Below are positions 32,165-62,891 of a DNA stretch of 64,000 bases, one piece after another (within the stretch, counting starts at the first letter, position 1; every line of letters begins with the position of its first letter). A model generated the notes under the pieces. The model had not been told where the DNA came from, did no database searches, and saw nothing but the letters and a program-made list of their open reading frames with translations. The DNA lies in contig NZ_CP079800.1 in assembly GCF_028869115.1 (NCBI RefSeq), positions 1,922,001 through 1,986,000 on the forward strand. Reading direction: 5' to 3'. The translations under genes were made by a program, and so were the position numbers. Source of the stretch: Pseudemcibacter aquimaris (GTDB lineage Bacteria > Pseudomonadota > Alphaproteobacteria > Sphingomonadales > Emcibacteraceae).

Positions 32165-35100
32165 TTATAAGATATAAAGACCAAACTCAGTAGCAATCTC
32201 ATTAAGGCTCAAACTGTCCACCTGAACCCCTTCAAGACGAATAAGCATATCAAGACTATCTTCACCGCTTTTATGTCCCTGAGAAAAAATGAAGGTATCA
32301 GCACCAACATCAAAGGCTACAGTCGGATGATGATCGTCGTCAATTAATAGTGGATTAACAAAATTTTGCCTTTGAAGATATTCAACAACTGCTGCAATAT
32401 CACTATTAGTGCTTATTTCAAGCGCTTCTGTAAAATCATCCTGATCATCAAAGCTAATGACACCATTTACTATAGAATGAGATTTTATGGTTGATCCGTC
32501 AATGGTCAATGAACTATCGAAACCATTTCCATCCGTAATCACAAAATTCAAATAATACATATCTGAAGCCAAGTAATCGTGACCTTCAACGCTAATATCG
32601 ATAGCTTCACTATTATTAGTACCGTCCCCTACTTCAAAGTCATATATGGTATCATAACCCGTTATGACCCCGTCATCGATTACACCGCTGATAGTTATAA
32701 CCGTTTCACCAGGCTCAAACACGAAGATATCATAATTACCACCACCATATAGCTGATCAATGCCTTTTCCGCCATATAGAGTATCCTGGCCTGATCCGCC
32801 TTTAAGAATATCATCACCATCCAGACCATAAATAATATCATCACAGAAAGTGCCTATCAGAACGTTATTCGCGTTATCGCCTGTGACTACTTCACCACAA
32901 TCTTCAACAGAATATGACCATTGTGTTCCACCATATATAACATAGGCAGATCCACTGTTTGCACCATCTGAATCTATGCCATGCGCGCCGACGATAAAGT
33001 CATCGTAACCATCGCCATTTAAATCACCGGCACCAGAAACGGACCAGCCACTTTGGTCACCAGCAGTTTCACCATCAATGCGGAAACCATTGGTACCATC
33101 CAGGGCTTCAAAATCAAAAACAGCAGGTATACCGGTATCAGTACCGAACAACACATAACTGGAACCACTATCATCACCGTTTGGATCTGCGGCGTAAGCA
33201 CCAACGATAATATCATCAAAGCCATCATCATTTATGTCACCTAGATTAGAAACTGAATAACCACTTTCATCGCCGGCTGCTTCGCCATCTAACCTAAAGC
33301 CAGTTGTTCCATCAAGCGTGGAAAGGTCAAATATACCTGATCCGGCTGTCCAATCAGCAGCACCAAACACCACATACGTAGATCCACTGGCATTACCATT
33401 GTTATCAGTATAACGCGCGCCTACGACCATATCATCGAAACCATCACCATTGAAATCGCCCGCTGATGATACGGAATAACCACTTTCATCATCTGCAGCC
33501 TCACCATCAAGGCGGAAACCATTTGTTCCATTAATTGATGAAAGATCAACAACACCTGAACCCGCCGTCCAATCATCATCACCGAAAACCACATATGTTG
33601 AACCGCTTGAATTGCCGTTCGGGTCGGCTGAATATGCACTTACGATCACATCATCATAACCATCACCATTAACATCACCAGCATTGGATACTGAATAGCC
33701 GCTTGCATCACCCACAGCAGCACCATCAAGACGGAAACCATTTGAACCATCAATGGACGATAGATCAAACACACCTGAATTGGCTGTCCAATTTGTCTGA
33801 CCGAAAACGACATAAGATGACCCACTGCCATCACCATTCGGATCAGCAGAAGGCGCACTAATAATTATATCATCAAAGCCATCACCGTTAACATCACCGG
33901 CATTGGATACCGAATATCCGCTTTCATCGCCAACGGCTTCACCATCAATGCGGAAACCATTGGTACCATCAAGGCTCGACAGATCAAATGACGCGCCCAT
34001 AAAGGATACATTACCAAACACCACGTAGCTCGAGCCGCTAAGATCACCATTCGGATCAGCGGCATAAGCACCGATTAACAGATCATCATAACCATCACCA
34101 TTAACGTCACCAGCATTGGATACTGAAAAACCGCTTTCATCACCCTCGCCAACACCATCAAGACGGAAACCATTAATTCCGTTAAAATTGGAAAGACTAT
34201 ATGGTGTTCCTAATATCCCATCGGCACCATAATTATCATTAGAGCCAAACAATACATAGCTCGCGCCTGTATCCGTACCATCCGCATTAACCAGATTGGC
34301 ACCAATGATTAAATCATCATATCCATCACCATTAAAATCACCCGCGCCCGATACAGACCAGCCAACTTGACCGTCTATTTCATCACCATCAAGGCGGAAA
34401 CCAAATCTACCATCCAATGTGGAAAGTTGTAGCGCTGAAAGCTCTGTTACTTCGTCAGTACTGAATGAAGAAACACTTTCCAAGGTTCCTTCACCGTCTG
34501 TATGACTTGCAACAACTGTTATCACGGACCCCACATCATCCTGGGTCAGGTAATAATTAACACCTGTGGCACCCGCAATATCAACACCATCACTTTGCCA
34601 TTGATAAGTGATGGCACCAAGACCATCTTCATCCGCAAGGGTATTTGATGCAATCAGCGTCGCACCTTCTGTTGCGCTACCCGCTATAGTTACTGTACCT
34701 GTTGTGGAATGACTAACATTCAAAACGGCACTTGTATTATCGGAAGTGACAGTCTCTACTGTACCCTCACCATCTGTATAGGTCGCAACAACAGTCATAG
34801 TTGCACCAACATCATCTTGGGTTAACGTATAGCTATCCGTTGTTGCATCCTCAACGTCAACACCATCACGTTGCCATTGATATGTGATTGTACCAAGTCC
34901 ATCTACATCATCAATTGTATTTGATACAGTCAGCGTTTCGTCTTCTGTCGCAGTACCCGAAATGATCACTTCACCAGTTGGCTCATTATTCACATTAAGA
35001 ACCGCCGAAGTACCTTCAGAAACGACTGTTTCATCAGTGCCGTAATCATCAGTGTAACTTGCGACAACTGTAATTACACTGCCTGTATCATCCTGCGTCA

Positions 35101-35767
35101 GTTCATAGGTTGTATTCGTTGCACCCAAAACATCAACGCCATCTCGCTGCCACTGGTAAGAGATTACACCAAGACCATCTTCATCACCGATCGTATTTGA
35201 AACCAATAACGTTTCGCCCTCTGTTGGTGTGCCTGTGATTGTAACCTCACCAACTGGGTCGTCATTTACGTTTTCTACAGCGGTTGTTCCCGTAAACGTA
35301 ATATTTTGAATATTGCCAAGCGTATCAGTATATGTAACTGATGATGAAATAATTGTGCCAACATCGGCTTGGGTAAGGGTATATGAATTTTCCGTGGCAC
35401 CAACAATTGGCACGCCGTCTCTTAACCATTCATATGTAATCGGCTCATCGGCATCCACACCAGATATTCCACCGGTTAATTCAAGCACCTGATCTTCAAC
35501 AGCTGTACCCTCAACCATCAAAATTCCGGTAGAACCACCGCCACTGCCGCCGCCAGTTCCAGTTCCTGTTCCCGTACCACCATCACCAGTAGGGTCGCCA
35601 AAAATTGGTCTTTCACCACCACCACAAGCTGCAAGAGAAGTCGTAGACATCAATAAAACCAAATTCCTGAACAATTTATTATTAGCAATTGCCTCAGGTA
35701 AATTAGATTTAAAGGATAATTTTTCCTTTTGTTCGATTTTTTGATTATAGTTATTAGAAACAAGCAC
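32165..35767 (-). CDS. Large surface protein with Ig-like, FG-GAP and RTX repeats
   Basis: 1200 residues. A hydrophobic segment ending SLAAC (Cys48) is followed by GGG and a Gly/Thr linker to about 80. Four Ig-like repeats of about 91 residues (82-447, each with YQWQRDGVDV or similar and TLTQDDVG) come next. Seven FG-GAP repeats of 65-70 residues (about 448-935, GDVNGDGYDDLIIGA type with Ca2+-binding DxDxDG loops) could make one seven-bladed beta-propeller. RTX-like nonapeptides (GDDILKGGSGQDTLYGG) and an acidic C-terminal region end the protein, typical of type I secretion. Likely an adhesin or surface layer protein. No secretion genes lie nearby. Confidence 0.8.
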   Translation of the reverse strand: MLVSNNYNQKIEQKEKLSFKSNLPEAIANNKLFRNLVLLMSTTSLAACGGGERPIFGDPTGDGGTGTGTGTGGGSGGGSTGILMVEGTAVEDQVLELTGGISGVDADEPITYEWLRDGVPIVGATENSYTLTQADVGTIISSSVTYTDTLGNIQNITFTGTTAVENVNDDPVGEVTITGTPTEGETLLVSNTIGDEDGLGVISYQWQRDGVDVLGATNTTYELTQDDTGSVITVVASYTDDYGTDETVVSEGTSAVLNVNNEPTGEVIISGTATEDETLTVSNTIDDVDGLGTITYQWQRDGVDVEDATTDSYTLTQDDVGATMTVVATYTDGEGTVETVTSDNTSAVLNVSHSTTGTVTIAGSATEGATLIASNTLADEDGLGAITYQWQSDGVDIAGATGVNYYLTQDDVGSVITVVASHTDGEGTLESVSSFSTDEVTELSALQLSTLDGRFGFRLDGDEIDGQVGWSVSGAGDFNGDGYDDLIIGANLVNADGTDTGASYVLFGSNDNYGADGILGTPYSLSNFNGINGFRLDGVGEGDESGFSVSNAGDVNGDGYDDLLIGAYAADPNGDLSGSSYVVFGNVSFMGASFDLSSLDGTNGFRIDGEAVGDESGYSVSNAGDVNGDGFDDIIISAPSADPNGDGSGSSYVVFGQTNWTANSGVFDLSSIDGSNGFRLDGAAVGDASGYSVSNAGDVNGDGYDDVIVSAYSADPNGNSSGSTYVVFGDDDWTAGSGVVDLSSINGTNGFRLDGEAADDESGYSVSSAGDFNGDGFDDMVVGARYTDNNGNASGSTYVVFGAADWTAGSGIFDLSTLDGTTGFRLDGEAAGDESGYSVSNLGDINDDGFDDIIVGAYAADPNGDDSGSSYVLFGTDTGIPAVFDFEALDGTNGFRIDGETAGDQSGWSVSGAGDLNGDGYDDFIVGAHGIDSDGANSGSAYVIYGGTQWSYSVEDCGEVVTGDNANNVLIGTFCDDIIYGLDGDDILKGGSGQDTLYGGKGIDQLYGGGNYDIFVFEPGETVITISGVIDDGVITGYDTIYDFEVGDGTNNSEAIDISVEGHDYLASDMYYLNFVITDGNGFDSSLTIDGSTIKSHSIVNGVISFDDQDDFTEALEISTNSDIAAVVEYLQRQNFVNPLLIDDDHHPTVAFDVGADTFIFSQGHKSGEDSLDMLIRLEGVQVDSLSLNEIATEFGLYIL

Positions 35768-37816: not shown

Positions 37817-38173
37817 ATGGATCAAGTTAATCAAATGGTTGATACGGCCATGGGTACTGCATCAATGTCCCCCTTTGTATCGCAAATATCATTATTCGTG
37901 CTCGCTATATTCGTTGGATACTACGTGGTCTGGAGCGTAACACCCGCCCTGCATACACCACTGATGGCGGTAACAAACGCCATTTCATCGGTAATTATTG
38001 TTGGTGCACTTATTGCCGCGGGGCCGGATGGCATGTCGATGGCAAAAATCCTCGGTATTATCGCGATTGGTCTTGCCGCCGTAAATATTTTTGGTGGCTT
38101 CGCCGTCACCAACCGCATGTTGAGCATGTATAAGAAAAAACCGCAGTCAGATAACAAAGGGGATAAATCATGA
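37817..38173 (+). CDS. pntAB: NAD(P) transhydrogenase subunit alpha, part 2
   Basis: 118 residues with three to four membrane helices, corresponding to the membrane part of the E. coli alpha chain. FVSQISLFVLAIFVGYYVVW and TPALHTPLMAVTNAISSVII are conserved in the family. It starts one base after pntAA and overlaps pntB by four bases (ATGA), so translation is coupled. Confidence 0.95.
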   Translation: MDQVNQMVDTAMGTASMSPFVSQISLFVLAIFVGYYVVWSVTPALHTPLMAVTNAISSVIIVGALIAAGPDGMSMAKILGIIAIGLAAVNIFGGFAVTNRMLSMYKKKPQSDNKGDKS

Positions 38174-39588
38174 GCGAACAAAATATCGTTGATTTAACCG
38201 CCATTGCTTACCTTGTTGCTGGTGTTTTATTCATTCTGGCTCTTCGTGGTCTTTCATCACCGGAAAGTTCCCGGCAGGGCAATATGTACGGTATGGTCGG
38301 TATGGCGATTGCGGTGATTACTACCCTCGCCAATCCGGAAATTGTTTCATACACGTGGATCATCATTGCCATCGCCGTTGGTGGCGGTATCGGGCTTATC
38401 ATCGCCAACCGCATTGCCATGACAAGCATGCCGCAACTTGTGGCCGCGTTCCATTCACTTGTGGGTCTTGCGGCTGTTCTTGTGGCGGCGGCAGCATTCC
38501 TTGAACCGGCAAGCTTTGGTATTACGGATGCCATGGGCAATATTTTTGTCGCAAGCCGCGTTGAAATGTCACTTGGTGCAGCGATTGGCGCCATAACATT
38601 TTCCGGTTCTGTGATTGCCTTTGCTAAGCTAAATGGCAACATGTCCGGCGCGCCGATATTGTTACCAATGCGCCATTTGATTAACGCCGGTATCGGCATT
38701 GCCATTTTCGCGCTGATATTCATGTTTTCAACCGACAATGTTTCGGCCATGGGTGGCGGTAATCTTATATGGATCATCATCGGGCTTAGTTTCCTGATCG
38801 GGTTCCTGATCATCATTCCAATTGGTGGTGCGGATATGCCGGTGGTTGTCAGCATGCTGAATAGTTATTCCGGCTGGGCGGCGGCGGGTATTGGTTTTAC
38901 CCTGCAAAATAATGCATTGATTGTAACGGGTGCGCTTGTGGGTTCATCCGGTGCGATCCTAAGTTACATTATGTGTGCCGCTATGAACCGTTCATTCATT
39001 AGCGTGATCCTTGGCGGATTTGGTGGTGATGACGCGGCCGCGGGCAGCGGTGAAATTGAAACACGCCCCGTGAAGCAAGGCGCGGCTGATGATGCGGCAT
39101 TCATCATGAAAAATGCATCATCGGTGATCATCGTTCCCGGATACGGTATGGCCGTGGCGCAAGCACAACATGCCTTACGTGAAATGTGCGACGCCCTTAA
39201 GGAAGAAGGCGTGACCGTAAAATACGCCATTCATCCGGTCGCGGGACGTATGCCCGGCCATATGAATGTGTTACTGGCCGAGGCCAACGTGCCCTATGAC
39301 GAAGTGTTCGAGCTAGAAGACATCAACAGCGAATTTGCCGCAACCGATGTTGCATTCGTAATCGGCGCCAATGACGTCACCAACCCGGCCGCAAAAACCG
39401 ATAAGACCAGCCCCATTTACGGCATGCCCGTGCTTGACGTGGAACAGGCTGGCACAGTGTTATTCGTTAAACGCGGCATGGCCAGCGGTTACGCCGGCGT
39501 TCAAAACGAACTGTTTTTCCGTGATAACACCATGATGCTTTTCAGTGATGCCAAGAAAATGGTCGAAGATATCATCAAGGCGCTTTGA
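38170..39588 (+). CDS. pntB: NAD(P) transhydrogenase subunit beta
   Basis: 472 residues. Eight or nine helices (to about 265) carry the proton channel; the C-terminal domain III binds NADP(H) through VPGYGMAVAQAQHALREM and PVAGRMPGHMNVLLAEA, and GANDVTNPAAKTDKTSPI is the signature near the nucleotide. It completes the pntAA-pntAB-pntB operon. A stem at 39597 follows. Confidence 0.96.
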   Translation: MSEQNIVDLTAIAYLVAGVLFILALRGLSSPESSRQGNMYGMVGMAIAVITTLANPEIVSYTWIIIAIAVGGGIGLIIANRIAMTSMPQLVAAFHSLVGLAAVLVAAAAFLEPASFGITDAMGNIFVASRVEMSLGAAIGAITFSGSVIAFAKLNGNMSGAPILLPMRHLINAGIGIAIFALIFMFSTDNVSAMGGGNLIWIIIGLSFLIGFLIIIPIGGADMPVVVSMLNSYSGWAAAGIGFTLQNNALIVTGALVGSSGAILSYIMCAAMNRSFISVILGGFGGDDAAAGSGEIETRPVKQGAADDAAFIMKNASSVIIVPGYGMAVAQAQHALREMCDALKEEGVTVKYAIHPVAGRMPGHMNVLLAEANVPYDEVFELEDINSEFAATDVAFVIGANDVTNPAAKTDKTSPIYGMPVLDVEQAGTVLFVKRGMASGYAGVQNELFFRDNTMMLFSDAKKMVEDIIKAL

Positions 39589-39596
39589 TTCAGAAT

Positions 39597-39620
39597 GTCC
39601 GCTTTGGCCACCAAGCGGAC
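39597..39620. other. Hairpin after pntB
   Basis: GTCCGCTT-TGGCCACC-AAGCGGAC, eight pairs, nine bases past the pntB stop. No T tract follows. The GTCCGCTT/AAGCGGA pairing recurs at 40265-40286 on the other side of the orphan gene. Confidence 0.7.
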
Positions 39621-39793
39621 GTTCGATTGCATTAATATATAATGCGACAATCATTTAAGGTGAGTAACTTTAAAATTTCGATCTTAATGTCTGTAATTAA
39701 TGTTTTAGTGACAATTTCCTTTGCTAGGTAGACGCTCATTGGAAACTATCCTATAAATTTTAACTAAGCATAAGTAAAAAAGGAATTTAGGAA

Positions 39794-40261
39794 TTGTCTC
39801 TAATTGAAATAATTAGTTGTTATGTTAGTGATAATGTAGAATTTGATGGAGACTTCTCTCGTTTGAGGAAATCCTTTATTTCAAATGGCTTCAGTGAGAA
39901 ACAAATCAACCAAGAGATATGGAAATTTAAGAGAGGAGCATCACTAGCGCTCGAGTTTAACTATAATTCTGAAGCACTGCAGATGAATGTTTTCTTGAGA
40001 AAAATTAACAATAAGTGCATAGAAGTTAAAGTTGGAAATAGCGGATTTCCATTTGAGCCGTTAATGATGAAAAAAAGGTTCAAGAAGAATTTGGAAAAAA
40101 TTATCGGTGAGATAACAGAACATGGGGAACTAATTACAAATGATGATGCCGTTAATGAAATTAGTGAAGATAGTAAAACAAAAAACGGTTTGGCAATAAA
40201 ATTCATAATGATCATAATTTTCGCAGTGCTAGGGCAAGTATTTTGGAAACTATATAATTGA
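39794..40261 (+). CDS. AT-rich orphan protein with a C-terminal membrane helix
   Basis: 155 residues. TTG 39794 is the start, with AGGAATTTAGGAA upstream; the next in-frame ATG would be far inside. The first 130 residues are soluble and beta-rich, and one helix (IKFIMIIIFAVLGQVFWKLY) forms the C-terminus. It is AT-rich and unlike the flanking pnt and VanZ genes. Stems sharing GTCCGCTT lie on both sides. I do not recognise a family. Confidence 0.55.
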   Translation: MSLIEIISCYVSDNVEFDGDFSRLRKSFISNGFSEKQINQEIWKFKRGASLALEFNYNSEALQMNVFLRKINNKCIEVKVGNSGFPFEPLMMKKRFKKNLEKIIGEITEHGELITNDDAVNEISEDSKTKNGLAIKFIMIIIFAVLGQVFWKLYN

Positions 40262-40264
40262 CCG

Positions 40265-40286
40265 TCCGCTTATAATCGAAAGCGGA
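40265..40286. other. Hairpin after the orphan gene
   Basis: TCCGCTT-ATAATCGA-AAGCGGA, seven pairs, four bases past the orphan stop. It echoes the stem at 39597-39620. Confidence 0.65.
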
Positions 40287-40318
40287 TTCTCTCGAGTTGG
40301 TTATTTTGACTGCCGTTT

Positions 40319-40681
40319 CTATTTTTGCTCAATCGGCTTAATTTTCCGAAAGATAAAATATGCTATTGCCCCAAGCAACACACCTAAACTGTTTGCAACA
40401 ATATCAAGGAATTCCGGCATGCGACCAGGAACGAATGATTGGGCGCCTTCCAAAAAAGTACCTATAAAAATTTGCACCGCTAAAATCGCGAATAAAGAAT
40501 GTTTTTGTCTAGACGATAAAAGCGCGAAAAAGGAAAGAATAGCATAAGTCACAAAATGCGCTGTTTTATCGGTAAATGGCATTTTTACTGGAATATTATC
40601 TTGGGGTAAAAGTGATAAAACCACGACGACCAATACCATCAGCCCCCAAACGGCTTTTCTTTTATTATGCGATATTTTCAA
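40319..40681 (-). CDS. VanZ-like family protein
   Basis: 120 residues with four helices. DKTAHFVTYAILSFFALL, EGAQSFVPGRMPEFLDIVAN and GVLLGAIAYF are the VanZ pattern. VanZ itself gives low-level teicoplanin resistance, but such short homologues are common in Gram-negative bacteria, often near polysaccharide or heme genes, and their role is unknown. Immediately upstream (40694-40737) is a remnant of a yigZ 3' end. Confidence 0.8.
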   Translation of the reverse strand: MKISHNKRKAVWGLMVLVVVVLSLLPQDNIPVKMPFTDKTAHFVTYAILSFFALLSSRQKHSLFAILAVQIFIGTFLEGAQSFVPGRMPEFLDIVANSLGVLLGAIAYFIFRKIKPIEQK

Positions 40682-40693
40682 CGATATATCCTT

Positions 40694-40737
40694 TTAATCT
40701 TCTAATACCTCGAATTGAATGCAGCTGCTGTTATGTC
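40694..40737 (-). repeat. Duplicated 3' end of yigZ, left boundary of the sulfatase cassette
   Basis: Read on the minus strand this segment ends IQFEVLED and a TAA stop, the same last residues as the intact yigZ at 43758-44378 (stop TGA). The 42-45 base copies align with about 36 matches and one gap; differences in the coding part are synonymous (CAG/CAA, TTT/TTC, GAG/GAA). The copies are in direct orientation and bracket exactly the LamG-like and sulfatase genes. Confidence 0.8.
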
Positions 40738-40740
40738 AAT

Positions 40741-42015
40741 TCACGGAACAAAACTTATCCCTTTAAGTTCATCTGCAGAAAGGACCCGATTGAATACGGC
40801 GACACCGTCCATATAAAGTTCGCTTGATCCGTGATCAATGCCATCTTCATCAAGTCCCAATGCACGGGCAAATGTAAAAGGTGCCCCTTCTGATACTATC
40901 TTTTCAACATTTGTTCCGACCTTGACCCAACTGCCATTTCGATATTCTTCAAGCCCCGTGATAATTTTGTCATTCACATTGACCGCTTGCGAAATCCCTA
41001 TTGTAGTTTTCTTGGTCACTTCTTTCATGATTTTATGAACAAAAATTGACCGCCCATCCCGTTCAACATCAAATGTCAAACGAAACCGTTTTTCAGGATC
41101 GCTACCTGTCTGATCATACACGATTTTTTTATCATTTAAATCGACCCACAGGAAATGCTCCTTAATTGGATTATTATGAAAATCATAACCATTAAATTTC
41201 AATTGAAAGTTTTTAGGACCGTACAAAGCCTGCGTAAAGGTGAATGGGTTGGCAAGCGGAATGACCGCGTTTTGCATAACATCTTCCGTCACCGGGTCCG
41301 GAATTCTATATTTCGTAAGTTCCCCATTCAAATAAGCCTTAACAACGCCATTTTCCGGATCAAAAGTCATCGCGATAGCGACCCATTTTTCATTTTCAAA
41401 TGCTTGACCGTCAATGGCCCTTATTCTGGCGTATTGTGCGCCATCAACATTCGATTGCGGATAACTGGCGGCCCCTGTTGATGAAATATGCGCAATCACA
41501 CCTTTCTGGTTAAAAAGTCCTGCGAATAACGCGGCCTGTCTTTCGCCGGCATAACGGTTCCATCCCCCCTCATCCCAAATACCGGCAACCATATGGCGAT
41601 TACCGTCAAACCTTACCCACGCAACCATGGTAAACGGCTTTTTCCCGGTTAAATCAAGCTCGCTACCATCAAATTCAGAGCGCGGCACTTCACCATAAAT
41701 ATATCCTTTATTCAACCTGATCCCGTGACCAAATGGCCCTGTCTGGTCAATGATAACTTTTGATAATTCATCATGATATGGCCAGCCCTTTACATCATAA
41801 CGGTTTTGATCACCAATACGGCGCAAATACACGGGAAATTCTTTATGGGTCACGTCTTTATCAAAATAGGATTTAAAGGCATTCTGATCCGATTTTTTAA
41901 AATCCCAAAATGCAACCAAGCCCTTTGTTGATGCAACCTTATCAACATTGTCATTTGAATATGCAAGCTGCGAAGAAATCATAAAGAACAACACTGTTTT
42001 TAAAATCTTACCCAT
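40741..42015 (-). CDS. Secreted LamG/concanavalin-A-like domain protein
   Basis: 424 residues from ATG 42015, which has AAGGGA upstream; the 15-residue extension to 42060 is dropped. A signal peptide (1-21, ends LAYSN) is followed by a lectin-like beta sandwich: GLVAFWDFKKS, KPFTMVAWVRFDG, VAIAMTFDPENGVVKAYLNG and the closing SSELYMDGVAVFNRVLSADE, characteristic of LamG domains that accompany sulfatases. Likely binds or helps to degrade a sulfated polysaccharide at the surface or in the periplasm. Divergent from the sulfatase with a shared operator. Its stop lies four bases from the yigZ remnant. Confidence 0.75.
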   Translation of the reverse strand: MGKILKTVLFFMISSQLAYSNDNVDKVASTKGLVAFWDFKKSDQNAFKSYFDKDVTHKEFPVYLRRIGDQNRYDVKGWPYHDELSKVIIDQTGPFGHGIRLNKGYIYGEVPRSEFDGSELDLTGKKPFTMVAWVRFDGNRHMVAGIWDEGGWNRYAGERQAALFAGLFNQKGVIAHISSTGAASYPQSNVDGAQYARIRAIDGQAFENEKWVAIAMTFDPENGVVKAYLNGELTKYRIPDPVTEDVMQNAVIPLANPFTFTQALYGPKNFQLKFNGYDFHNNPIKEHFLWVDLNDKKIVYDQTGSDPEKRFRLTFDVERDGRSIFVHKIMKEVTKKTTIGISQAVNVNDKIITGLEEYRNGSWVKVGTNVEKIVSEGAPFTFARALGLDEDGIDHGSSELYMDGVAVFNRVLSADELKGISFVP

Positions 42016-42062
42016 ATTTTTTCCCTTGTAATTTTGCGATTTAACCGTGATTTGCAACATCG

Positions 42063-42080
42063 AGTGTAATCGTTTACACT
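42063..42080. promoter_or_regulatory. LacI-type operator between the sulfatase and LamG genes
   Basis: AGTGTAATCGTTTACACT: seven-base arms around a four-base centre with the TGTAA.CG.TTACA pattern used by LacI/GalR-family repressors. It lies in the 133-base divergent gap. No LacI gene is in the window. Confidence 0.6.
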
Positions 42081-42148
42081 GAAGATAACAAGCATCTTAA
42101 AAATACACGCACATGATAATCAAGGGATTTTCAAGAGGGAAACAATCA

Positions 42149-43753
42149 ATGAAAAACATCTATTTTTCAATCATTTCATTTTTATTATATTCGGCATTCA
42201 CCGTGATTTTATTTGCGCAGGATTTATCAAAACGTCCTAATATTATTTATATTCTAACCGACGACCAACGTTATGATGAACTTGGTATATTAAACCCGTT
42301 ATTAGATACACCGAATATGGATGCCATCGCCGAAAATGGCGTTCATTTTAAAAATGCATTTGTAACCACCGCACTTTGTTCCCCAAGTCGCGCCACAATT
42401 TTGACGGGGCAATATGCCAATACCCACAGGGTTGTCGATAACAACGCCCCTATCCGCGAAGGAACAATATTTTTCCCATCATATTTACAAAACGCGGGTT
42501 ATAAAACCGCCTTTATAGGAAAATGGCATATGGGCGCTGAAGGGGATCAGCCCCAACCCGGCTTTGATAAATGGATAAGTTTCGAAGGCCAGGGAAATTA
42601 TTACCCCATCAATGAAAACGGCACCCAATCAAAACTGAATGTAGACGGCAAACACGTTAATCAAAAAGGGTATATCACCGATGAATTAACGGATTATGCC
42701 ATTGATTGGTTAGATGATCTTGATACAAGTGAACCGTTTTTCCTTTATTTTTCCCATAAAGCGGTCCATGCGGACTTTGAACCTGCGAAGCGCCATGCAA
42801 ATCAATATGATGGTAAACAGGTAAAATTACCCGACAATATGGCCAATACGGAAGAAAACTATAAAGGCAAGCCTCGCTGGGTTAAAGACCAACGCAGCAG
42901 CTGGCACGGTGTTGATTTCCCCTATCACAGCACACTGGATGTGGGAAAATATAAAATGCAATATCACCGAACCTTATCGGCAGTGGACGATAGCATCGGC
43001 CGGTTAATGGCATGGTTAGAAGAAAAAAATCTTACGGAAAATACCATAATCATGCTTATGGGTGATAATGGCTTTATGTTTGGTGAACACGGCCTTATTG
43101 ACAAACGAAATGCATATGAAGAAAGCATGCGTGTTCCATTGCTGGCGATGGGGCCGGGTTTTGAAAAAGGAAAAACCGTATATCAGGTTGTTGCCAATCT
43201 TGACATTGCACCAACCATTCTGGAAATCGCCGATGTGGAAAAACCTGATCAATTCCAAGGGCGCAGTTTCAAGAAACTAGCCGATAATAATCCGGATGAT
43301 GATCAATGGAACAATGAATTTGTTTATGAATATTTCTGGGAATATAATTTCCCGCAAACCCCGACAACATTTGCTGTTCGCACAGACCGTTATAAATTAA
43401 TCCAATATCACGGTGTTTGGGACCGTGAAGAGCTTTATGATATAATCAATGATCCAACCGAAATGAATAATCTGGCGAATGATCCTGATCTACTTGACGT
43501 TAAAATCGCGCTTAGAAAACGTTTATATGAACTGACAAGCAATCAAGACGGTGAACATGTCGTACCATACACAGAAAGAAAATCCATCGGTTCATCATAT
43601 CGTGATAGCAATTCAATTAAGGCCGCAGATTTTCCTGAAGAATGGCTTAGAAACGGTACAGAAGTTGATTTAAACCAAGGTCATATTCCCGATAGTCCGG
43701 AAAAATTTGAGCGACTAAAAAGATTACAGCAAGAGGCTGATCAACAGAATTAA
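42149..43753 (+). CDS. Type I sulfatase (formylglycine-dependent)
   Basis: 534 residues from ATG 42149 (GAGGGA upstream; the 12-residue extension is dropped). A signal peptide (1-24, ends LFAQ) precedes NIIYILTDDQRYDELG with the metal-binding Asp pair, then CSPSR (77-81) whose Cys is converted to formylglycine, GKWHMG, and MGDNGFMFGEHG with the second metal site. It hydrolyses a sulfate ester, probably from a marine algal polysaccharide, in the periplasm or outside. No maturase (FGE or AnSME) is in the window. Forms a divergent pair with the LamG gene. Confidence 0.9.
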   Translation: MKNIYFSIISFLLYSAFTVILFAQDLSKRPNIIYILTDDQRYDELGILNPLLDTPNMDAIAENGVHFKNAFVTTALCSPSRATILTGQYANTHRVVDNNAPIREGTIFFPSYLQNAGYKTAFIGKWHMGAEGDQPQPGFDKWISFEGQGNYYPINENGTQSKLNVDGKHVNQKGYITDELTDYAIDWLDDLDTSEPFFLYFSHKAVHADFEPAKRHANQYDGKQVKLPDNMANTEENYKGKPRWVKDQRSSWHGVDFPYHSTLDVGKYKMQYHRTLSAVDDSIGRLMAWLEEKNLTENTIIMLMGDNGFMFGEHGLIDKRNAYEESMRVPLLAMGPGFEKGKTVYQVVANLDIAPTILEIADVEKPDQFQGRSFKKLADNNPDDDQWNNEFVYEYFWEYNFPQTPTTFAVRTDRYKLIQYHGVWDREELYDIINDPTEMNNLANDPDLLDVKIALRKRLYELTSNQDGEHVVPYTERKSIGSSYRDSNSIKAADFPEEWLRNGTEVDLNQGHIPDSPEKFERLKRLQQEADQQN

Positions 43754-43757
43754 TGCA

Positions 43758-43802
43758 TCAATCCTCTAATACCTCAAACTGAATGCGCCCGCTTGTTTTG
43801 TC
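43758..43802 (-). repeat. yigZ 3' end, right boundary of the sulfatase cassette
   Basis: The intact copy of the duplicated sequence, forming the last 15 codons of yigZ. It matches 40694-40737 in direct orientation. The sulfatase stop is four bases away. Confidence 0.8.
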
Positions 43803-44378
43803 GAAAATTTCGGCGATGGCGAGCGGAGCTTCGCGGGCGTCCATTTTTAGGTCCCAGCTGATTTTATCGGTAAACTGGACGTCGCGTTCGATGATGTTAT
43901 AATTTTCAAGTAATTTATCAATCAGGCTTTGATGGCTATATTCCGAAATGCCGGTGACGTATACTTCGGGTATTTTTTCACCCGTGACCAGTTCTTCCAT
44001 CGCCAGTTTTAACGAACCACCATATGCACGCACAAGGCCACCTGTACCAAGTTTGGTACCACCAAAATACCGTGTTACCACGCCCGTAATTTCACCAATG
44101 CCCGATCCCATCAACACATTTAACATCGGCTTACCCGCGGTTCCATTTGGTTCCCCATCATCGGAAAAGCCAAGCACCTGACTATCCCACGGCGCACCCG
44201 CCACATATGCCCAACAATTATGGCCCGCGTCCGGGTATTCTTCTTTGATTTTCGCGATAAATTCCCGTGCGCTTTTAACATCGGGGGTATGGCCGATATG
44301 GGCGATAAAACGGCTGCGTTTAATCACATCTTCGATCATCACAGTTTTTTTGGGAATATGGTATGTGCTGTCTGTCAT
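43758..44378 (-). CDS. yigZ: YigZ/IMPACT-family protein
   Basis: 206 residues. The N-terminal UPF0029 domain has KKSRFIAHI-like KRSRFIAHIGHTPDV, the HNCWAY segment and GFSDDGEPNGTAGKPML, the family hallmark; TRYFGGTKLGTGGLVRAYG continues it. The C-terminal ferredoxin-like domain ends SGRIQFEVLED. Related to yeast YIH1/human IMPACT, which restrain Gcn2; the bacterial role is unclear. Its 3' end is duplicated at 40694-40737. Confidence 0.92.
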   Translation of the reverse strand: MTDSTYHIPKKTVMIEDVIKRSRFIAHIGHTPDVKSAREFIAKIKEEYPDAGHNCWAYVAGAPWDSQVLGFSDDGEPNGTAGKPMLNVLMGSGIGEITGVVTRYFGGTKLGTGGLVRAYGGSLKLAMEELVTGEKIPEVYVTGISEYSHQSLIDKLLENYNIIERDVQFTDKISWDLKMDAREAPLAIAEIFDKTSGRIQFEVLED

Positions 44379-60604: not shown

Positions 60605-60669
60605 ATATTTGAATTCAATTTCCATCCCCGCTATAATTTTGCGAAATCAACATTTTATTGGGGGAAATG

Positions 60670-61764
60670 ATGCTTACCCGAATTATATTTATATTAAGCC
60701 TGCTGATCACACCGGTATTCGCTGATGAAGTCGCGGATAAGGCCGAATTTAAAAAATTATACGCTGAATTTAATGAACTATATTCAAGTTCCGAAGACAT
60801 CGACCCAATCATCGAGGTCGCCGAAAAACTAATCAAAATCGCACCCAAGGCATATGGCAAGAACCATATGAACACCGCCGTTGTGACGTATAATCTGGCG
60901 AGCCTTTATATAGAAAAAGATTTAGAACAGCATAATGTAGAATTAGAGAACCAAACCACAATCCTTTTGGAAAAATATTTTAAAATTCTTGATAGAATTG
61001 ATGCGCCCAAAAACAGAACATACGTCAATCAATTCTTAGTATATCTGAAAGCAAGTGTTGACGATCATGTAGAGGAAAGCATTAAAAGTGAAGCTAGAAA
61101 AATACAAAAAATTGCTAAAGAATTAGACTACGAGCCACAAGAATTGGCGAAAATTGAGAATAGTTTAGCTCATATTCTTTTCAAAAACCGCCAATACCAA
61201 GAAGCAAAAGATTTCCATGAAGATTCAAATTTAAATTATGAAAAAGCTTATGGAGAAAATCATTTTAAAATTGGTGAAAATTTATTTTCAATCGCCAAAA
61301 TTGACATGGGATGGAATAAAAGAGAATTAGCTGAAAAAGAGTTCTTAAAAGCGCTTGATATATTCGAAAAGAATGGTGAATTAGGAAATACACTTGCTCA
61401 ATCAACTCATGCATTCCTTGTCGCTTTATATGAAGAAATGGGAAACCCTGACGCAGCAACTAAACATTGTCAGGCTGTAGCCATTGAACGTCCAAAAGAT
61501 TTTGATAAAGAAATTGATCCATTATACAGAAAACTTCCCGACTATCCGTCCACTCGCAGAGAAGGATATGTTCTCGTCGAATTTAATGTTGATACAAATG
61601 GAAACACACAAGATGTGAAAATCTTAGAAAGTTCTGCAGCAATTTTTGAAAAAAATAGCCTCGAAGCAATTTCAAAATGGAGATATGCGCCTAGTGTGCA
61701 AAATGGCGAACTGATTATTACAGAAAATGCTAAAGCGCGAATTGAATATCGAAGGTCAAGGTAA
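60670..61764 (+). CDS. Exported TPR protein with a TonB C-terminal domain, copy 1
   Basis: 364 residues from ATG 60670, which has GGGGGA upstream (ATG 60667 is too close). A signal peptide (1-18, ends FA-DE) precedes a helical TPR-like region (25-285) and a TonB C-terminal-like domain (about 290-364: YPSTRREGYVLVEFNVDTNG, then ISKWRYAPSVQNGEL). Unlike TonB there is no inner-membrane anchor, so this is probably a soluble periplasmic protein. First of three tandem paralogues: its N-terminus is nearly identical to copy 2 and its middle (THAFLVALYEEMGNPDAATK) to copy 3. Confidence 0.75.
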   Translation: MLTRIIFILSLLITPVFADEVADKAEFKKLYAEFNELYSSSEDIDPIIEVAEKLIKIAPKAYGKNHMNTAVVTYNLASLYIEKDLEQHNVELENQTTILLEKYFKILDRIDAPKNRTYVNQFLVYLKASVDDHVEESIKSEARKIQKIAKELDYEPQELAKIENSLAHILFKNRQYQEAKDFHEDSNLNYEKAYGENHFKIGENLFSIAKIDMGWNKRELAEKEFLKALDIFEKNGELGNTLAQSTHAFLVALYEEMGNPDAATKHCQAVAIERPKDFDKEIDPLYRKLPDYPSTRREGYVLVEFNVDTNGNTQDVKILESSAAIFEKNSLEAISKWRYAPSVQNGELIITENAKARIEYRRSR

Positions 61765-62891
61765 TGATCAAATATCTTCTATTATTCTCTTTACTCCTCT
61801 CCTCTTACGCATTCGCCGATCAAGCAACGGACAAGGCAGAATTTAAAAAATTATACGAAGAATTTAATGAACTATATTCAAGTTCACAGAACATAGAACC
61901 AATTGTTGCAGTAGGAAAAAAACTTATAAAAATTGCTCCGAAAGCTTATGGCAGAAACAGCAAAAATAATGCAATTGTTCACTATAATATGGCACGTTTA
62001 TACGATGAAACCAGTAATGGGAAAATTTATGAATATGAAGAGATTGCCAGCGAATATTATAAGAAATACTTCAAAATTTTAGACAAATCTAAAACGCCAA
62101 AAGATGAAACATACTTTGATCATTATATAGAACTTATCAACACCGAAATGGCACTTCATGGGATATGGTACAAAAATAAATATCTAAACAATTTATTATC
62201 CATGGCATCAAAAAGTAATATTCCAGTTTTGAAAAAAGCAGAAATTGAGGTCTTTGTAGCAAATCAACGTTATCTGAAAGACGACAAAGCAAAAGCACTT
62301 AAAATTTTTATTTCAGCACTAAACAAACTTGAAACCATTGAAAACACGAATAAATTAACCCTTGCAAATGCCTATCTCGGTAAAGCGCTCATTCATTTCG
62401 ACAATAAAAACTACAAGGATGCTGAGGTAGGTTTTCAATTAGCCCTCAAAAATTATGAAGAATTAGAAACAATAGATAAAAACATCCTCGCAAATTCCCA
62501 TAAAAACTTAGCGAGATTATATGTAGAAACAGGTAAATATGATTTGGCTGCATCACACGGCGAACAGGTTACAAAATTTGCTAACAATCCAAAAGAAATG
62601 TTTCTACCGATTGTAAGGAAAGAACCACTATATCCCTCGACCGCAAGGCGTCACGGTGCCGGCGGTTATGTTGTTATCAAATTGACGATTGATACCGAAG
62701 GAAAGACAAAAAACATCACAGTGGTGGAATCATCTTCCTCAGTGTTTGAAGAAAATGCAATAAAAGCTGTCGAAGGATTTCGATATATCCCGCAGTCCGA
62801 AAATGGCACGAGAATTGAAGTACCAAATGTAATGGCCGTATTGCAATTTGGAATAGCCAGTAGAAAATATATGTACATGAAAGCAATGTGA
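61764..62891 (+). CDS. Exported TPR protein with a TonB C-terminal domain, copy 2
   Basis: 375 residues. The ATG overlaps the copy 1 stop (TAATG). A signal peptide (1-18) is followed by KAEFKKLYEEFNELYSSSQN, shared with copy 1, then TPR-like helices and a TonB-C domain (YPSTARRHGAGGYVVIKLTI, then VEGFRYIPQSENGTRIEVPN). A C-terminal extension SRKYMYMKAM is unique. The role is unknown; TonB-C domains normally contact outer-membrane receptor plugs. Confidence 0.75.
   Translation: MIKYLLLFSLLLSSYAFADQATDKAEFKKLYEEFNELYSSSQNIEPIVAVGKKLIKIAPKAYGRNSKNNAIVHYNMARLYDETSNGKIYEYEEIASEYYKKYFKILDKSKTPKDETYFDHYIELINTEMALHGIWYKNKYLNNLLSMASKSNIPVLKKAEIEVFVANQRYLKDDKAKALKIFISALNKLETIENTNKLTLANAYLGKALIHFDNKNYKDAEVGFQLALKNYEELETIDKNILANSHKNLARLYVETGKYDLAASHGEQVTKFANNPKEMFLPIVRKEPLYPSTARRHGAGGYVVIKLTIDTEGKTKNITVVESSSSVFEENAIKAVEGFRYIPQSENGTRIEVPNVMAVLQFGIASRKYMYMKAM

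Follow-up and report, generated by a model that had tools for sequence, protein, structure and literature searches.

A LamG-sulfatase gene pair inserted between pntB and yigZ of Pseudemcibacter aquimaris, beside a relic of the yigZ 3' end

Bacterial hotspots of gene acquisition that lie between core genes and carry no recognisable mobile element have been described (Oliveira et al., 2017, PMC5635113, in its accessible part). Likewise, the accessible part of a second work (PMC3240628) describes how a single crossover duplicates the homologous end, and how foreign DNA is inserted with homology on one side only. A third point of comparison is the group of integrative elements that sit at the 3' ends of genes, among them SGI1 at trmE (PMC8409611). 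For yigZ itself, none of the papers listed in our search on integration sites and genomic islands contains the gene; a search on sulfatases of Emcibacteraceae gave no paper, and a broader query gave nothing useful. The locus described here lies in a window of 64,000 nt (1922001-1986000); the genome, assembled as a single contig, has 3,369,470 bases. In this window 4,169 bp separate yigZ from a gene that we take to be pntB, named from its sequence and not by a family search. The interval comprises, in this order, a hairpin, a hypothetical ORF, a degenerate hairpin, a VanZ gene, a yigZ relic, a LamG gene and a sulfatase gene (Table 1). We compared it within a set of 13 genomes of the genus, namely that of the window and those of 12 other species, while wider searches covered 19 other members of the family, 28 genomes of the order and 385 of the class.

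Table 1. Features of the pntB-yigZ interval; positions are counted from the first base of the window unless a locus of a relative is named.
Feature	Position	Strand	Remark
pntB (transhydrogenase beta), left anchor gene	38170..39588	+	86-92% identical in 11 relatives (one partial)
Whole insert between pntB and yigZ, 4,169 bp	39589..43757	.	absent in 11/11 readable same-genus genomes
Hairpin GAATGTCCGCTT/AAGCGGACGTTC directly 3' of pntB	39593..39624	.	related hairpin at same place in G001
Hypothetical ORF, 32% G+C	39794..40261	+	no Pfam/NCBIfam match at E<=0.001
Degenerate second hairpin-like copy	40256..40286	.	74% complementary to 39598-39628
VanZ-family gene, TTG start	40319..40681	-	12 nt between relic stop and start; AGGA-type upstream stretch as in relatives
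yigZ 3'-end relic (left copy); a 1-nt deletion breaks the frame	40694..40737	-	sequence comparison
LamG-domain (Laminin_G_3) protein	40741..42060	-	domain match
Type I sulfatase (Sulfatase + SGSH_C), CSPSR at residue 89	42113..43753	+	domain match
Intact yigZ (IMPACT_YIGZ), right anchor gene	43758..44378	-	last 45 nt (43758-43802) = right copy
Related hairpins in other loci	L019 394; L166 2933; L167 2783		

The two-gene LamG-sulfatase module is an insertion, as the comparison with relatives confirms. pntB and yigZ are convergent neighbours in all 11 same-genus genomes in which the junction can be read, and there the junction is closed: the two stops overlap by 4-6 nt in nine genomes, touch in one and are 11 nt apart in one. 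Furthermore, the gene pair was found in other contexts in two relatives (G001 and G008). The earlier note had taken the stretch bounded by the two yigZ ends as the insert. The cassette indeed lies inside the insertion, but the inserted stretch, whose boundaries were observed directly, is larger and fills the whole interval between the two anchor genes. In the twelfth relative, G001, the two genes are split between contigs C20 and C22, which both end there, so that the middle of the interval is unread. Downstream of its pntB a hairpin is followed by a membrane-protein ORF that, judged by eye, looks like an ACR3 arsenite transporter, while behind its yigZ come a hairpin and then an aminotransferase-like ORF (likewise named by eye) that is cut by the contig end. 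The pattern of a hotspot, conserved flanks with an empty interval in relatives, was found in all 11 readable genomes. Different cargo is seen in G001, where other genes have come to lie beside both pntB and yigZ, with the full interval unread and a rearrangement also possible.

The second element of the locus is the repeat. As the earlier note had observed, the last 45 nt of yigZ recur in the same orientation further left in the window. Both copies align with 36 of 45 identical columns and one gap, and the local alignment score is 25, compared to a maximum of 17 (mean 12.1) among 300 dinucleotide shuffles of the insert on both strands, which gives a fitted p of ~5e-6. Against this, of 590 same-strand neighbourhood probes of 80 nt across the window, 14 reach the score of 25, and the best 12 of these 14 are located at 33.0-34.8 kb and 61.8 kb in internally repeated or tandemly similar ORFs. 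These are, at 32165-35767, an ORF of 1200 aa with ~7 tandem repeats of roughly 219 nt, which by eye looks like an FG-GAP surface protein, and, at 60658-62891, two neighbouring ORFs of 368 and 375 aa, which have a 183-nt stretch in common (74% identity) and are likely a tandem duplication. A 27-nt pattern fitting both yigZ-tail copies with up to three mismatches matches only two places in the 13 genomes of the genus, and both are here. In the core of the repeat 24 of 28 nt agree, and the differences are silent or lead from stop to stop; so are the 4 of 27 nt that differ within the final nine codons (IQFEVLED and the stop). In the 17 columns upstream of the core 12 agree, which is equalled at 53 of 42,656 positions (every third base, both strands; p ~0.0012). 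This upstream stretch of the left copy carries a 1-nt deletion and an AAA-to-ATA change (Lys to Ile). Thus the left copy, by its sequence, is a homologous but worn relic of yigZ, its frame broken ahead of IQFEVLED, and its differences are not all synonymous. The observation of the earlier note was therefore partly confirmed. The repeat is real, and shuffles as well as its uniqueness in 13 genomes support a homologous yigZ tail, while the claim of synonymous differences needs to be trimmed to the last nine codons. The note had further counted four bases on both sides of the cassette; this is correct from the sulfatase stop to that of yigZ, while three bases separate the LamG stop from the relic. 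Outside the two genes, only 3-4 bp thus remain to the repeat copies.

We read the locus, with moderate confidence, as a gene gain driven by recombination at a pntB-yigZ hotspot, with the yigZ tail left behind as a scar. The pntB-yigZ junction would have become an insertion site in the lineage of the window's species, where several unrelated genes gathered: the hypothetical ORF, VanZ and, probably as the latest, the LamG-sulfatase pair. The latter would have recombined in between yigZ and VanZ in an event after which the yigZ 3' end was present twice. The route is likely homology-based, in one of two forms: either a circular piece carrying a short yigZ tail entered by a single crossover, or an incoming piece was anchored by its own yigZ and formed an illegitimate joint at its other end. 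Of the two copies, the one attached to the rest of the gene would have stayed intact while the other decayed, and a dedicated integrase would not be needed. We infer this order of events and the recombination route, and the relic is too short for the route to be read from it. The relic ends at the yigZ stop, and since the conserved upstream stretch of VanZ directly follows that stop, the relic points to a former adjacency of yigZ and VanZ. ComEC is present in the genome; however, it was also matched in 10 of 14 control genomes and is therefore a weak sign of competence.

An alternative to such a gene gain is a replacement, in which an incoming sulfatase-yigZ piece from a diverged strain replaced the body of the resident yigZ, the resident tail being left beside VanZ. 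This would explain why none of the four changes within the last nine codons alters the protein, for which the chance with four random transitions is ~0.012 (10 silent sites counted by hand). It would also fit the stop codons: the relic shares its TAA with G004, G008 and G010, in which this stop overlaps pntB; the intact gene ends with TGA and that of G001 with TAG. However, the frameshift and the Lys-to-Ile change of the relic fall into the well-conserved DKTSGR stretch, and at the Phe codon it is the TTT of the intact copy, not the relic, that agrees with G001, G004, G008 and G010. In addition, no donor is known, and we regard a replacement as rather unlikely. At the Glu codon the relic agrees with the GAA of G001 and G010. 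Both copies have changed; the duplication is thus not fresh, or two diverged alleles were joined in it. The proposal that the left tail stems from the yigZ of another strain found no support among the sequenced species: the relic scores 25 against the local gene, 13 against G003 and at most 11 against the other 11 genomes, and the VLED ending occurs in the yigZ of no other species among the 13 genus genomes. A tail from an unsequenced close strain could still fit.

Less probable than a replacement is site-specific integration. Here, the yigZ 3' end would be an attachment site and the LamG-sulfatase pair a stripped integrative element, with the left copy as attL and the yigZ side as an attR that keeps the gene whole. 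The arrangement is consistent with this: the repeats are direct, one is part of a whole gene while the other is a remnant, and together they bound the cargo exactly. The genome also holds two 469-aa tyrosine-recombinase frames elsewhere. However, none of the four insert proteins (LamG, sulfatase, VanZ and the unmatched protein) is a recombinase, which agrees with the earlier view of a cassette without its own integrase, and hardly any DNA is left beyond the two genes. A genome-wide search for tyrosine recombinases (PF00589) gave four hits, all more than 400 kb from the window. A direct gene-end repeat does bound the pair, but its copies are only 80% identical; a divergence of 20% overall, and ~14% in the core, makes a recent move less likely. 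A further copy of the yigZ tail was sought throughout the insert, the pntB side included, and the best scores were 10 and 13 on the two strands; for a copy of the pntB tail they were 12 and 12, near the shuffle mean. Integration as by an integrase, which had been proposed, is thus unsupported.

LamG is present in 4 of the 12 other genus genomes (57-60% identity), all of which also carry the sulfatase, and the latter occurs at 70% identity or more in 5 of 12, one copy being cut by a contig end. Both genes are divergent neighbours in G001 and G008, while they are located on different contigs in G003 and G009. G009 (L069, 12313-15471) and G003 (L073, 26-2994) each carry two copies of the sulfatase orthologue in tandem. 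Beyond the genus, LamG was absent from the 47 family and order genomes searched, and its one match among 385 class genomes is the genome of the window itself. The search for an outside donor of LamG yielded none, with one plasmid record at 28% identity and three IMG/VR pattern matches of which none was confirmed; the 34 phage records matched by the sulfatase, all below 60% identity, are uninformative. The pair lies next to yigZ in none of the 12 relatives, so the same element was not found at the same site elsewhere. Where the pair occurs in G001 and G008, no match above 15 to the yigZ tails of the 13 species was detected, compared to 25 in the window, which argues against an attachment site. 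VanZ orthologues (at least 63% identity) were found in 4 of 12 relatives at five loci, all away from yigZ, contrary to the expectation that some relatives would have both genes side by side. When the yigZ tails of the 13 species were compared to 14 stretches of relatives (the own yigZ of G009 cut out), the best scores were 13-19; the tails of the window, too, stayed at or below 19 in the loci of the cargo genes. One match of score 19 lies in the G003 LamG locus (L074, 6459-6489) close to the 5' end of LamG, with 25 of 31 nt identical to an internal stretch of that species' own yigZ end; another is located in an unrelated VanZ locus (L078). We take both as chance, since the unrelated locus reaches an equal score and neither match extends to the stop codon. 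Duplicated gene ends beside other sulfatases, for which the earlier note had suggested a search, did not appear either: of 17 chosen places, that of the window included, one (L073) was dropped because its flank is too short, and the 15 usable places besides the window score 12-19. Given these results, we consider site-specific integration improbable. Still further down ranks the idea that small cargo pairs, moved in trans by a recombinase from elsewhere in the genome, use the yigZ 3' end as a true attachment site; if true, no integrase of its own would be needed for a sulfatase cassette to travel, but we deem this very improbable. A chance match without shared origin is close to negligible and already refuted in the main by the controls: although the relic has only 44 nt, a 64-kb self-comparison yields many short matches and scores up to 19 arise in loci of 15-20 kb, the score far above the shuffle maximum, the unique pattern, the upstream extension and the end of the match at the stop codon all speak against it.

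Two further aspects concern the flanks of the insert. With one protein as query (E<=0.001), yigZ was matched throughout the genus (all 12 other members), in none of the 19 further genomes of the family and, weakly, in 2 of 28 genomes of the order. In a yigZ tree of 42 rows (13 of the genus and 29 of the 80 loci from the yigZ search), three Pseudoalteromonas proteins (L090, L091, L100) nest within those of the genus, beside G003 (support 99/82). Because of this nesting, while no other family genome matched yigZ, the gene was likely passed between Pseudoalteromonas and the genus of the window. Two MAGs named Emcibacteraceae bacterium (L088, L089) are among the nearest yigZ relatives in named genomes, and the genus thus most likely falls within this family of Alphaproteobacteria. 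The second aspect is the GTCCGCTTT..AAAGCGGAC-type hairpin, perhaps a terminator or a low-copy repeat, which adjoins pntB in the window and in G001, and yigZ in G001. A strict GTCCGC hairpin pattern gave three matches in the 13 genus genomes, one of them in the genome of the window, while a longer palindrome with up to three mismatches gave none in this genome; since this palindrome is spaced differently from the copy in the window, it is a poor test of abundance.

As to function, the C-x-P-S-R motif marks the maturation site of type I sulfatases. The sulfatase of the insert comprises both this type of motif and the Sulfatase domain (PF00884, E 9.7e-60), and thus belongs to type I. It resembles solved type I sulfatases (9s03, the mucin-desulfating 7p24 and the N-acetylglucosamine-6-sulfatase 5g2v) along much of the domain, with E values of 1e-76 to 1e-75; its LamG partner has no NCBIfam match. 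Judged from these domains, the pair likely serves the use of sulfated glycans, presumably through desulfation of a glycan.

Taken together, the interpretation of the earlier note is partly supported: the insertion stands, while a travelling cassette that carries the tail of another strain is unsupported by the available comparisons. What the locus offers is a readable example of a sulfatase gene pair that, without a visible mobile element, came to lie between housekeeping genes, and the scar marks where the pair joined. It shows no new transfer mechanism and by its looks is ordinary gene acquisition. With SGI1 at trmE, as described in the accessible part of PMC8409611, it shares a direct gene-end repeat on both sides, one of them in a whole gene; unlike SGI1, the insert proteins searched comprise no integrase, excision or transfer gene, and the repeats are worn. 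Homology-facilitated illegitimate recombination and single crossover, as far as PMC3240628 is accessible, are alike in that homology lies on one side and an illegitimate joint on the other, or in that the homologous end is duplicated. However, the duplications sequenced there measure 109-950 bp, and the illegitimate events generally come with a deletion, while the window's copy has 44-45 nt. From the hotspots in the accessible part of PMC5635113 the interval differs, as it is filled in only 2 of 13 genomes and the comparison is between species. It resembles them in that no mobility gene is present among the insert proteins searched, and in that variable genes occupy one interval between core genes, with other genes at this place in another species.
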